Below are positions 577 through 8,391 of a DNA stretch of 11,993 nt, one piece after another. The DNA comes from Nocardioidaceae bacterium. Its GTDB lineage: Bacteria; Actinomycetota; Actinomycetes; Propionibacteriales; Nocardioidaceae. Location of the stretch: assembly GCA_013813125.1 (NCBI GenBank), contig JACCSH010000019.1:1-11993 (forward strand), written 5' to 3'. Made by a program: the position numbers and the translations under genes. The notes beneath the pieces are model-generated. The model saw nothing but the letters and a program-made list of their open reading frames with translations, was not told where the DNA came from and did no database searches. Numbering within the stretch: the first letter of the stretch is position 1; each line of letters begins with the position of its first letter.

Positions 577-582
577 TTGACA
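577..582 (+). promoter_or_regulatory. Consensus -35 hexamer TTGACA (no good -10 seen)
   Basis: TTGACA is a perfect sigma-70 family -35 element. At 16-18 bases spacing only weak -10 candidates occur (AAAGGG, AAGGGT or AGGGTT at 599-606). The call rests on the -35 and on the structured RNA plus terminator downstream. Confidence 0.3.
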
Positions 583-821
583 ACAATGCGTCACGTTGAA
601 AGGGTTCAGGAGGTCCACCGGTAACCGCCGATCAGCAACTCATCGTCAGGCGCACTGCTTTCAACCTGGTTCCTGATCCAAACCAGCGCGACGCAGGCCC
701 TCCATGTCTTTGCTGACACACGTGGGTGGACCCGGGAAGAGCCTGCTTGCCAGTAGACAACGGGCGCTTCGGTCCACATCCAGTGGCGCCGTCGCTCGGT
801 TCGAAGGCGAGCGGGGTTTTT
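583..821 (+). ncRNA. Candidate structured non-coding RNA, family unknown
   Basis: A run of mutually compatible helices can be drawn. GTTGAAAG 595-602 pairs with CTTTCAAC 658-665. CGCC 626-629 pairs with GGCG 649-652. CTGGTT 666-671 pairs with AACCAG 681-686 around a 9-base loop. TGTC 705-708 pairs with GACA 715-718. A long stem joins 723-743 to 763-782 (TGG, GTGGACC, GAAG and GCC segments, about 17 pairs with small bulges). The loop CCTGATCC (672-679) is complementary to GGTTCAGG (603-610) except for one mismatch, suggesting a pseudoknot. A hairpin with T-run closes the unit at 793-821. I see no tRNA, tmRNA, SRP or RNase P signature. The 5' end is not defined. It could instead be a regulated leader, but lnt has its own promoter downstream. 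All of this is manual folding without energy calculation. Confidence 0.4.
793..821 (+). terminator. Rho-independent terminator-like hairpin
   Basis: CGCTCG (793-798) pairs with CGAGCG (808-813) around a 9-base loop. It is followed by GGG and five T (817-821). Polarity is plus strand. It is too far (about 350 bases) from kal to be its obvious terminator and precedes the lnt promoter, so it most likely ends the candidate RNA. Confidence 0.5.
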
Positions 822-873
822 CCGGTTCCGGCCCAGGCGATCCCTAACCACACCCGCCGGGCTTCGCGGTCGG

Positions 874-879
874 TAGGCT
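874..879 (+). promoter_or_regulatory. -10 element of lnt, leaderless geometry
   Basis: TAGGCT fits the actinobacterial TANNNT -10. It ends 7 bases before the GTG at 887, so transcription would begin at or next to the start codon. No convincing -35 is seen at 17-18 bases spacing. There is no Shine-Dalgarno before the GTG, which agrees with a leaderless mRNA. Confidence 0.5.
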
Positions 880-886
880 CGCAGGC

Positions 887-2407
887 GTGCCTCTCTCGCC
901 TCGCATGAGTGGCCTGGCGAGACTGACCGGCTCCGCCGTGGCTGGGTTGGCCGCAGCGGCCGCTTTCCCGCCCTGGGGCCAGATCTGGCTGCTGCCGTTC
1001 GGGTTGGCCGGACTGATGGTCACCGTGCGTGGTTGCCGCGGCCGCGGAGGCTTCGCGCAGGGACTTGCCTTTGGTCTGGGGTTCATGTTGCCGCTGACCA
1101 GTTGGCTCACTGTCATCGGTGCGGATGCCTGGCTCGCGGTGGGACTCTTGGAGGCCCTCTTCTACGGGCTGATGGCAATGACCTGGGCCTGGCTGCGCAT
1201 TTCCGCGTACTGGCCAATCGGCATCGCCTGCACCTGGGTCGGCGCGGAGCTCTTGCGAGCGACGGTGCCCTTTGGCGGCCTGCCCTGGGGACGGCTCGCC
1301 TTCGGCCTGGTCGACACTCCGCTGGTGCACTACGGCCGAATCGGTGGCACCGCTCTCGTCGCGCTCGTGAGCGTCCTGTCCGTGGCGCTGGTGGTTGCGG
1401 TCATCGAACGACGCCAGCTTGACCTACGCGCGGGTGCGATGCTGCTGAGCGGCGTCGGGGCGCTGGGAGTCAGCCTGCTGCTGCCGGCGCGCGCCGCAGA
1501 CCCGGGCCAGGCCATCACGGTGGCAACCGTGCAGGGCAACGTACCGGGGGAAGGCATGAACGCTTTTGCCGAGCGGCGTGCCGTCCTGCGCAACCACGCC
1601 CAAGCCACCCGCGCCTTCAGTCGAGACGTCGCCGAAAGCTCGCGCCCTGCTCCCGACATCGTCATCTGGCCGGAGAACTCAACTGACATCGACCCGTTCG
1701 TCGATTCGGCGGCATACGCACAGATCGACCGCGCCGTCCAAGCTATCGGCGTTCCCACGTTGGTGGGAGCCGTAGTAGCGGGACCGGATGCGACGCAGGT
1801 ACAGAACATGGGCATCGTCTGGACTCCAGGGTCGGGTCCGGGCGAGCGTTACGTGAAGCGCCACCCCGTCCCGTTCGGCGAGTACATCCCCTTTCGCGGC
1901 ATCCTCACCCGCTACATCTCGCGTCTGGAGCAGATCCCGCGCGACTTCGCCCGAGGGACGTTCGACAACGTCCTCGACATGGCCGGCACGCGCGTCGGGG
2001 ACGTCATCTGTTTCGAAGTGGCCTATGACGGTCTGATCCGCGATGCGGTGAACGACGGGGGAGAGCTGCTGGTCGTACAGACCAACAACGCGACTTACAC
2101 CGGCACCGGGCAGCTGCAACAGCAGTTCGCCATCTCCCGCTACCGTGCGATCGAAACCGGTCGGACAGTCGTGGTGTCCGCCACGAACGGCATCAGCGGC
2201 ATCATTTCCCCCGATGGCGAGGTCATGGACATCACAGCCGAGAAGACCCGTGATGTGCTGGTCGAGGAGGTGACGTTGGCCAGTGGGGTGACGGCGGGTG
2301 TGCGGATCGGAAAGTGGCTCGAGTTGGCGCTTTCGATGGCAGGCCTGGCCCTCGCTGCGCACGCCTACTTGGGTCGACGTCGCGAGGTTGGCACGATGGC
2401 AACGTGA
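887..2407 (+). CDS. lnt: Apolipoprotein N-acyltransferase
   Basis: The 506-residue membrane protein would add the third acyl chain to the N-terminal cysteine of lipoproteins, outside the cytoplasmic membrane. Several hydrophobic segments span about residues 12-200. A nitrilase-type domain follows (about 210-465), then a last membrane segment (476-495). The Glu-Lys-Cys triad is visible: E263 in IVIWPENS, K324 in YVKRHPVPFGEYIP, and C375 in GDVICFEVAYD. Spacing is close to E. coli Lnt (E267, K335, C387). The chosen start is GTG 887 because a TAGGCT -10 box lies 7 bases upstream; ATG 905 (residue 7) is the alternative. The stop overlaps the ppm start (GTGA). In M. tuberculosis the same two activities are fused in Ppm1 (Rv2051c); here they are separate chains in an operon. 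Confidence 0.93.
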   Translation: MPLSPRMSGLARLTGSAVAGLAAAAAFPPWGQIWLLPFGLAGLMVTVRGCRGRGGFAQGLAFGLGFMLPLTSWLTVIGADAWLAVGLLEALFYGLMAMTWAWLRISAYWPIGIACTWVGAELLRATVPFGGLPWGRLAFGLVDTPLVHYGRIGGTALVALVSVLSVALVVAVIERRQLDLRAGAMLLSGVGALGVSLLLPARAADPGQAITVATVQGNVPGEGMNAFAERRAVLRNHAQATRAFSRDVAESSRPAPDIVIWPENSTDIDPFVDSAAYAQIDRAVQAIGVPTLVGAVVAGPDATQVQNMGIVWTPGSGPGERYVKRHPVPFGEYIPFRGILTRYISRLEQIPRDFARGTFDNVLDMAGTRVGDVICFEVAYDGLIRDAVNDGGELLVVQTNNATYTGTGQLQQQFAISRYRAIETGRTVVVSATNGISGIISPDGEVMDITAEKTRDVLVEEVTLASGVTAGVRIGKWLELALSMAGLALAAHAYLGRRREVGTMAT

Positions 2408-6785: not shown

Positions 6786-8312
6786 TCAGATGTCGCGGAA
6801 CGTCTCGATCTGGGCGCCGAGGGCATTGAGCCGCTCAGCCAGATCCTCGTAGCCGCGGTTGATGACGTAGACGTTGCGCAGCACAGATGTGCCCTTAGCT
6901 GCCAACATGGCCAGCAAGATCACGACGGCAGGACGGAGCGCTGGCGGACACATCAGCTCGGCTGCCGACCAGTGGGTCGGGCCCTCTACCAGCACCCGAT
7001 GGGGGTCGAGCAACGTGACACCCGCACCCAGCTTGGTCAGCTCGGTGAGGTAGATCGCGCGGTTCTCGTAGACCCAGTCGTGGATCATCGTCTGGCCGTG
7101 GGCGGTGGCGGCGATGACGGCGAAGAAAGGCAGGTTGTCGATGTTGAGACCGGGGAACGGCATCGGGTGGATTTTGTCTATCGGAGCGTGCAGAGTCGAC
7201 TCTTGCGTCGTCAGGTCGATGAGGCGGGTTCGCCCGTTTCCGGCCAAGTACTCGTCGCTGCGCTCGTAGTTGAAACCCATCTCCTCGAGCAGGGCGAGCT
7301 CGATCTCGAGGAACTCGATGGGCACTCGACGGATCGTGATGCACGACGAGGTGACGATGGCCGCCGCCACCAGGCTCATTGCCTCGATCGGGTCCTCGGA
7401 GGGGGCGTAGTCGACGTCGACGTCTATCTCCGTCACACCATGGACGGTCAACGTCGTGGTGCCGACACCCTCGATGCGCACGCCCAGCTTCGAGAGGTAG
7501 AAGCACAGGTCCTGCACCATGTAGTTCGAGCTGGCGTTGCGGATGACGGTGACGCCGTCGTGGCGGGCCGCGGCAAGCAGCGCGTTCTCCGTCACGGTGT
7601 CACCCCGCTCGGTGAGCACGATCGGCCGCAACGGCGCAATCTGCGAGTCGACCTGCGCATGGTAGTAACCGTCGGTGGCGCTGATCTTGAGGCCGAATGG
7701 CCGCAGCGCAGTCAGGTGGGGCTCGACCGTACGGGTCCCCAGGTCGCAACCGCCTGCGTAGGGCAGTTCGAACGCCTCACGGTCGTGGAGGAGTGGGCCG
7801 AGGAACATGATGATGCTGCGAGTACGGCGGGCAGCCTCCTCGTCGATGCTGCTCAGGTCGAGCTGGTCGGGTGGGATCAACTCGAGGTCGTTGTCCCCGA
7901 GCCAGGTGGACTTGACCCCAATGCTGTTGAGAACCTCGAGGATGCGGTTGACCTCTTCGATGCGGGCCACTTTGCGGAGCGTCGTACGGCCCTTGTTGAG
8001 CAGTGACGCGCACAGCAGGGCCACTCCGGCGTTCTTGCTGGTCTTGACGTCGATCAAACCCGACAAGGTGGTGCCGCCGACCACCCGAAGGTGCATGAGC
8101 TCGGGTGCTCCCAGAGAGACGATGCCAGAGTCGAGCGCCTCGCCGATGCGAGCGAGAGTGTCCAGCGTGACGTTTTGATGACCCCGCTCGATCCGGTTGA
8201 GGGCGCTTTGGCTCGTGCCCAAGATGTCTGCGAGTTGAGCCTGGGTGTAGCCGCGATGCCGGCGAGCGTTGCGGATGAGATCACCGATGCGCTGCAAGTA
8301 GTCCCCGTTCAT
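6786..8312 (-). CDS. XRE HTH-enolpyruvyl transferase fusion (MurA-like)
   Basis: The 508-residue product joins an XRE-type helix-turn-helix (about 8-62: YTQAQLADILGTSQSALNRI, then ERG) to a complete UDP-GlcNAc enolpyruvyl transferase domain (about 74-506). MurA adds enolpyruvate from PEP to UDP-GlcNAc at the first committed step of peptidoglycan synthesis. Active-site features remain: K93-N94 in TSKNAGVALL, C189 in AGGCDLGTRTVEPHL (the fosfomycin-target Cys), R193, an Asp in LNIDNLPFFAVIA (392), YENRAIYL (415-422), and the C-terminal INRGYEDL. The enzyme part is near the usual 420 residues, so the HTH is extra. ATG 8312 is preferred because a TACGGT -10 box ends 6 bases upstream; a frame open to 8372 would cross the operator. 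Whether it is the main MurA or a paralogue cannot be told here. Confidence 0.88.
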   Translation of the reverse strand: MNGDYLQRIGDLIRNARRHRGYTQAQLADILGTSQSALNRIERGHQNVTLDTLARIGEALDSGIVSLGAPELMHLRVVGGTTLSGLIDVKTSKNAGVALLCASLLNKGRTTLRKVARIEEVNRILEVLNSIGVKSTWLGDNDLELIPPDQLDLSSIDEEAARRTRSIIMFLGPLLHDREAFELPYAGGCDLGTRTVEPHLTALRPFGLKISATDGYYHAQVDSQIAPLRPIVLTERGDTVTENALLAAARHDGVTVIRNASSNYMVQDLCFYLSKLGVRIEGVGTTTLTVHGVTEIDVDVDYAPSEDPIEAMSLVAAAIVTSSCITIRRVPIEFLEIELALLEEMGFNYERSDEYLAGNGRTRLIDLTTQESTLHAPIDKIHPMPFPGLNIDNLPFFAVIAATAHGQTMIHDWVYENRAIYLTELTKLGAGVTLLDPHRVLVEGPTHWSAAELMCPPALRPAVVILLAMLAAKGTSVLRNVYVINRGYEDLAERLNALGAQIETFRDI

Positions 8313-8318
8313 GCCACC

Positions 8319-8324
8319 ACCGTA
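8319..8324 (-). promoter_or_regulatory. -10 element of the MurA-like gene
   Basis: On the minus strand TACGGT ends 6 bases before ATG 8312, the leaderless spacing. A weak -35 (TTTACC, 8348-8343) lies 18 bases further upstream. Confidence 0.45.
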
Positions 8325-8340
8325 TCTCATATCTGAGATA
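8323..8340. promoter_or_regulatory. Palindromic operator TATCTCA-TATC-TGAGATA
   Basis: A perfect 7-bp inverted repeat with a 4-base centre occupies the spacer between the putative -35 and -10 of the MurA-like gene and touches the -10. Its size and A/T content are unlike the surrounding sequence and suit a dimeric XRE repressor. The simplest reading is autoregulation by the HTH domain encoded just downstream. Confidence 0.6.
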
Positions 8341-8391
8341 GCGGTAAAGGCCACGCCGACGACTCTGTCCACCGTCTAGAGTCGCCCCACC

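Follow-up and report, generated by a model that had tools for sequence, protein, structure and literature searches.

The window analysed here is the whole stretch of 11,993 nucleotides, which makes up one complete contig of a draft assembly (1.8 Mb in 332 contigs, completeness 76%). The interval studied is flanked by a gene for a thioesterase-fold protein (46–444, named kal in the first-pass annotation) and by lnt (887–2407), and the gene order after lnt is a glycosyltransferase (ppm), fxsA, and then rbpA on the opposite strand (all assigned with Pfam). Further along, at 6786–8372 on the minus strand, the window encodes an EPSP-synthase-type enzyme (MurA-like) with an N-terminal helix-turn-helix (HTH_3, E 4.3e-14, Pfam); given this domain, the cell-wall enzyme may also bind DNA.

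The first-pass annotation had placed an RNA gene between kal and lnt. The structured RNA is borne out by the comparisons described below, whereas half of the structure drawn for it is not. The features of the locus are the following.

536–568, no strand assigned: palindrome TGACCTGC (536–543)–N17–CCAGGTCA (561–568), one letter off the consensus TGACCTGC...GCAGGTCA
577–582, plus strand: −35 hexamer TTGACA, found with the pattern TTGACA + 16–19 nt + NANNNT
600–605, plus strand: −10-like hexamer AAGGGT, 17 nt after the −35 hexamer, a weak match from which the start site is predicted
612–821, plus strand: RNA of about 210 nt, from the fold and the homologues, with predicted start (611–613) and predicted end
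612–619, plus strand: 5' strand of helix P1, GGTCCACC, which closes the 5' domain (fold; pair changes in the family)
666–686, plus strand: hairpin of the 5' domain, CTGGTT (666–671) with AACCAG (681–686) (fold; family alignment)
725–732, plus strand: 3' strand of helix P1, GGTGGACC (fold; pair changes in the family)
733–827, plus strand: conserved 3' domain as modelled (R1/R2), from covariance; the window itself scores 75 bits
736–751, plus strand: 5' strand of the basal stem, paired with 806–821 (fold and covariation)
752–760, plus strand: internal-loop strand AGTA (752–755), GAC (756–758) and bulge AA (759–760), invariant in 17 family sequences
761–798, plus strand: second stem and apical hairpin with a five-base loop (fold and covariation)
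800–807, plus strand: opposite internal-loop strand, from GGTTCGAAGG (798–807; GGTCCGAAGG in most) (alignments)
806–821, plus strand: 3' strand of the basal stem, ending in TTTTT (817–821), a probable terminator (fold)
874–889, plus strand: TAGGCT, 7 nt and GTG, a possible leaderless promoter and start of lnt, 3' of the RNA

When the RNA is folded from position 612, P1 forms the outermost helix of the 5' domain, with z = −2.28 (612–821; 6 of 200 shuffles as good), while 577–821 gives z = −1.83 (12 of 200 shuffles as good). By itself, the predicted folding energy is unimpressive. The fold of the 3' domain, predicted from the family alignment, starts from a long basal stem and leads through an internal loop into a second stem, which is capped by an apical hairpin whose loop has five bases; no large central bubble is present in the predicted fold. 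The two strands of the internal loop are CCAGTAGACAACG and GGTYCGAAGG. In the family alignment the former is a run of 13 consecutive invariant letters and the latter appears as CGGTYCGAAGG. The most constant letters are those of the internal loop (AGTA opposite CGAA) and of the AA bulge, with flanking helices that vary while their pairing is kept; the apical loop NNCCA is fairly conserved. By eye, the AGUA/GAA internal loop resembles the sarcin-ricin or loop-E motif.

Every string of the first-pass annotation that was looked up is present in the window: TTGACA (577–582), AGGAGGT (608–614), TTTTT (817–821), the inverted repeats GTTGAAAG (595–602) and CTTTCAAC (658–665), CTGGTT (666–671) and AACCAG (681–686), GTGGACC (726–732) and GGTCCAC (771–777), and the loop CCTGATCC (672–679), complementary with one mismatch to GGTTCAGG (603–610). 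The hairpin 666–671/681–686 is part of the predicted fold, and relatives have similar hairpins in other letters at the corresponding position (by eye). Two of the stems drawn were rejected from the conserved fold: the 595–602 arm of 595–602/658–665 belongs to the promoter, 5' of the predicted start, and the nearest relative (L003) does not retain its partner, while 726–732/771–777 competes with the helix 612–619/725–732 and with the apical hairpin that contains 771–777. The suggested pseudoknot between 672–679 and 603–610 is not supported either, its 603–610 strand lying upstream of the predicted start. This start, placed by the promoter position at ~612 instead of 577, gives a length of ~210 nt and not about 240 nt. 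AGGAGGT, described there as exposed and possibly a ribosome or antisense contact, is not conserved in relatives and was rejected in that role. The terminator hairpin with its five T residues is present, although it is longer than drawn (736–751/806–821). As to the low coding potential, among the open reading frames of 10 sequences (the two longest of each) none is common to all, but one GTG frame, ~94 nt before the core, is common to 5 of the 10, in which its length differs, from 32 codons up to 61 or more.

Relatives of the RNA were found within the genus and the family. In the same genus, one of the two other genomes has the interval, with 79% identity over 532–827. In the family, blastn (E up to 0.01) gave matches in 35 of 197 genomes, a large share of which were short and had nothing to do with the RNA; 31 loci were collected, 18 of which (17 distinct, window included) have a shared 3' motif. 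Among the 17 relatives, lnt is found in 16 and kal in 15 (neither in L018; L008 starts too near). The 17 distinct motif-bearing sequences make up the first alignment (A1), from which the remaining loci were left out. In A1 (17 sequences, 16 distinct), 22 of 34 pairs show two-sided changes and 90.9% of cells pair, and none of 500 shuffles reaches any of the five covariation measures. One row of a larger alignment of 100 matches (A2) is an antisense artefact from L009 (28.5 bits), in which the hairpin is mirrored; it was kept when model R2 was built. In A2, 93.5% of the cells of the 3' domain pair, and 635 two-sided cells are observed vs 190 in shuffles, with at most 129 when the partner columns are slid; the number of covarying pairs is 28 vs a shuffle mean of 25.6 (8 of 500 shuffles reach 28). 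Covariation among relatives, which the first-pass annotation had named as one test of its proposal, is strong, and a structured RNA is well supported by the comparison: the two-sided changes exceed those of shuffles and indicate structure beyond chance, though energy alone would not convince.

The 5' domain behaves differently from one lineage to another. In the family alignment it has 82 two-sided cells (shuffle mean 35, maximum 48), and 78% of its cells pair vs 71% in shuffles, in a region where the alignment is imperfect; this alignment, the best of three by energy, holds 24 of 42 extracted sequences, and nine further loci (L279–L287) gave no row. In four other groups the 5' domains beat each of 100 shuffles in two-sided cells, and their sequence and layout differ. 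For the Streptomyces 5' domains, a group filtered by motif spelling, the covarying pairs (8, with a shuffle maximum of 9) are not above shuffles. Each of these tests used a structure predicted from the very alignment being tested, a bias in its favour. The cross-species swap test of P1 is not discriminating, with a mean of 17.7 for the own partners and of 16.9 (sd 3.6) for the swapped ones, and among 23 copies with an unusual 5' strand of P1 the own partner is better than the consensus in 12, equal in 3 and worse in 8. As judged from these alignments, the 5' domain is lineage-specific and covarying.

The promoter pattern TTGACA + 16–19 nt + NANNNT is found at 163 of 195 distinct RNAs and in no shuffled control (each RNA shuffled once, by mononucleotide); a good number of the 195 belong to closely related genomes and do not count as independent. 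The positions of the −35 hexamer and of the −10-like AAGGGT in the window lead to the predicted start at about 611–613; in Streptomyces copies the −10-like hexamer is TAGGTT. Together with the covariation and the terminator-like 3' stem, the conserved promoter upholds the earlier proposal of a structured RNA transcribed on its own.

The palindrome upstream of the promoter is 31–33 bp long across relatives. With up to 4 mismatches in 16 positions, it is present at 105 of the 163 promoter-bearing RNAs (none below 5 mismatches in shuffled sequences), and in 103 of these the distance from its end to the −35 hexamer is exactly 8 nt (3 to 14 nt allowed). In 61 genomes of the family, 30 exact sites are found in 27 genomes, with 34 genomes lacking an exact site; 25 of the 30 are at the RNA, and a wide regulon in the family was rejected on this count. 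Two of the other five exact sites were inspected (L234, L242), and the RNA is absent from both. The palindrome is probably a transcription-factor site, and its near-unique occurrence per family genome suggests a dedicated regulator. Its fixed place beside the −35 hexamer, from Nocardioidaceae to Streptomyces, suggests that the factor touches RNA polymerase and would hence be an activator. We know of no actinobacterial factor with the palindrome TGACCTGC...GCAGGTCA.

With model R1, the RNA is detected in 137 of 197 genomes and in all 26 of 26 genera of the family. Within the order 140 of 293 genomes have it, which adds three families, one of these through just one marginal match, and within the class it occurs in 181 of 394 genomes, from 71 of 138 genera. 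All of these figures are minimum counts. There is one match in each of the family and order genomes listed, and eight genomes of the class listing have two. In the phylum sample, model R2 matches 17 of 396 genomes; two are outside the class and weak (E 1.7e-4 and 0.0096), both retain a AGTAGACAACG-like strand, and one is located 5' of an lnt homologue. Judged by these samples, the RNA is essentially confined to the class Actinomycetes.

Thirteen genomes were picked after negative searches; one (G002) has no ppm match, and the intended stretches upstream of lnt were read in 12. A search run with the speed filters off found a divergent copy in 4 of the 12 (L303, L304, L305, L307): three lack most of the apical part and read ACTAGACAAC, so that the first loop strand (752–760 in the window), invariant in the first 17 sequences, is altered in them, and one has a decayed internal loop. 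These copies are natural variants able to test which part of the RNA matters. In 5 of the 12 stretches blast gave no lnt edge (L303, L304, L309, L311, L312), and the absence of the RNA from L309, L311 and L312 is uncertain. In G003 (L301) only 55 nt separate the kal match from the lnt match and no RNA lies there, while a second member of the genus (G028, L012) carries it.

A pattern scan of named genome contigs gave at least 119 stretches, 80 of them among the matches listed. These 80 include Streptomyces, Nocardioides, Kribbella, Nonomuraea, Sphaerisporangium, Streptosporangium, Microtetraspora, Nocardiopsis, Micromonospora, Salinispora, Actinoplanes, Plantactinospora, Phytoactinopolyspora, Oerskovia, Actinotalea, and Frankiaceae MAGs. 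An archaeal record (L134, the only one among 100 sources that the model missed) and an uncultured bacterium (L150) lack the surrounding sequence and were taken as chance. The viral contigs contain no exact match to the motif, the window's copy has no blastn match in plasmids, and a Streptomyces copy has none in phages; on these grounds a mobile-element origin was rejected.

The gene neighbourhood is largely constant. In 72 of the 80 named loci among the matches listed, lnt or ppm is found downstream in the same orientation, no more than 4 kb away, ppm being the first match 3' of the RNA at many Streptomyces loci; of the other eight, five end 123–925 nt after the core start, two are the chance matches, and one is L139. 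The gap between the core and the aligned part of the Lnt or Ppm protein ranges from 59 to over 600 nt. On L139, a single Streptosporangiaceae MAG contig, the RNA (165–253) ends ~70 nt from a convergent rbpA; lnt and ppm are not seen nearby, and no co-directional gene is evident. In the window, TAGGCT lies seven bases before the GTG of lnt, downstream of the terminator stem of the RNA. A similar leaderless pattern before a frame open for 90 codons is found at 14 of 28 family loci, a raw count, uncorrected for chance, that accepts any such frame as the possible lnt.

The first-pass annotation had matched the RNA to no known family by eye, and Rfam 15 at gathering score likewise gives no match in the window nor in 16 family loci. 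A permissive scan of 440–900 returns only two weak, implausible matches. On the 16 named loci scanned there is no match at the RNA, the sole match lying elsewhere on one locus. This is a ZMP/ZTP riboswitch (RF01750, 40.6 bits) at L125:6850–6954 of Phytoactinopolyspora halophila, on the same stretch as the RNA. Searching the literature with the motif letters gave only chance matches, unrelated by title, and searching it for scr1422–1425 and SCO1423–1424 gave ppm-type proteins and one unrelated paper, with no description of the RNA. The S. coelicolor ppm1 is, we presume, SCO1423. No description was found in open-licence main texts, although supplementary tables of Streptomyces sRNAs may already list the transcript. 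An RNA at the kal/lnt/ppm locus is not described in the accessible text of PMC9130861, PMC11077062, PMC3765725, PMC11678152, PMC11109978 and PMC8632094. The RNA family of Actinomycetes is apparently undescribed so far.

Among the known RNAs, scr1434/sar6912/svr1031 is, in the accessible text, conserved in three Streptomyces and has a stable stem-loop with a C-rich loop (PMC3765725); it is named after SCO1434, whereas the RNA described here is expected beside ppm1, and, compared by name and position, the two are probably, though not certainly, different. The CoRP RNA of Corynebacterium glutamicum is likewise an abundant actinobacterial structured RNA outside Rfam-type families, but, compared by description only and as given in the accessible text, it has 516 nt, lies between tRNA genes and binds RNA polymerase (PMC11077062), whereas the neighbours of the RNA in the window are protein genes.

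The RNA is probably, though by no means certainly, a stand-alone, separately regulated structured RNA that acts in trans, most likely with a protein. Comparison across genomes supports a conserved fold, promoter and control site, occurrence in single copy as a rule, and a fixed neighbourhood. The neighbourhood is also an argument for a different and, in our estimate, unlikely reading, namely a cis-acting leader of lnt or ppm (a riboswitch or protein-binding attenuator), in which the 3' stem would be a conditional terminator opened by ligand binding to, or release from, the internal loop. As a leader would, the RNA stands before a co-directional lnt or ppm at those 72 of 80 listed loci, with lnt 3' of it in 16 of the 17 first relatives, and it shares with riboswitch-type leaders a conserved, aptamer-like internal loop, a terminator-like stem, and the constant place before lnt/ppm. 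Unlike them, it is followed by a separate promoter-like element for the next gene, with lnt having its own −10-like element after the terminator. This element, the variable next gene and gap, and L139 with no evident co-directional gene favour an independent RNA over a leader, and the persistence of lnt without the RNA in G003 was counted on the same side. Against the stand-alone RNA, besides the position before lnt/ppm, are the missing leaderless pattern in 14 of 28 loci, the single MAG contig behind L139, the counts of covarying pairs (hardly above shuffles in A2, and not above them in the Streptomyces 5' domains), and P1, which the cross-species swap does not support.

Size, class-wide occurrence, single copy and stand-alone character would also suit an RNA like 6S or Ms1 that binds RNA polymerase, and rbpA, the gene of an RNA polymerase regulator, is close by. 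Ms1 (scr3559) is similarly a class-wide stand-alone structured RNA of 200–300 nt with a conserved gene neighbourhood, but according to the accessible text that of Nocardioidaceae Ms1 is a HAD-hydrolase locus (PMC9130861) and not kal/lnt/ppm/rbpA. There is no 6S or Ms1 match in the Rfam scans, a negative that is weak for Ms1, which Rfam is said to detect only near Mycobacteria (PMC9130861, accessible text). The fold has no large central bubble, and by eye the layout differs from that of Ms1. RNA polymerase is made less likely as a partner because RIP-seq in S. coelicolor, in the accessible text, named only scr3559 and scr0792 on it (PMC11077062), where an S. coelicolor copy of the present RNA is presumed. 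A polymerase-binding RNA is accordingly rated very unlikely. Equally improbable is a base-pairing sRNA that controls mRNAs via single-stranded loops such as the apical NNCCA. The apical loop is fairly conserved, and conserved Streptomyces sRNAs with C-rich loops are known (PMC3765725, accessible text); however, the most constant letters are in the internal loop and its flanks rather than in an exposed seed, and the apical part is shortened in three copies.

For the stand-alone RNA, the following arrangement can be proposed. The segment 612–821 would be a non-coding RNA of ~210 nt, the local member of a family of the class Actinomycetes, encoded by an RNA gene with its own housekeeping-type promoter, which is probably activated by a dedicated factor binding the palindrome. 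A lineage-specific 5' domain, closed by the long-range helix P1, would precede the widely shared 3' domain, whose basal stem would also serve as the terminator. We infer that the RNA is transcribed under such a regulator and acts in trans with a protein partner: the constant internal loop between paired helices that change their letters looks like a site read in three dimensions, and its two nearly invariant strands would be where a conserved partner, probably a protein, binds. The 5' domain, in turn, may adapt the RNA to each lineage. A further-reaching version, which is put forward tentatively and may well not hold, is that of an undescribed class-wide housekeeping RNA, an ancestral single-copy component of a ribonucleoprotein, controlled by an activator of its own. 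A conserved protein would sit on its AGUAGACAAC/GGUCCGAAGG internal loop, which by eye is sarcin-ricin or loop-E-like, and take part with it in a process served by no known bacterial RNA, and the exchangeable lineage-specific 5' domains would be adaptors.

The RNA recurs in many soil bacteria, including Streptomyces, and its presence in tractable streptomycetes makes its function directly testable. Its retention, usually in single copy, from Nocardioides and Kribbella to Streptomyces, Micromonospora and Nonomuraea, together with the control site at a fixed distance, points to a likely general role in these producers of natural antibiotics.
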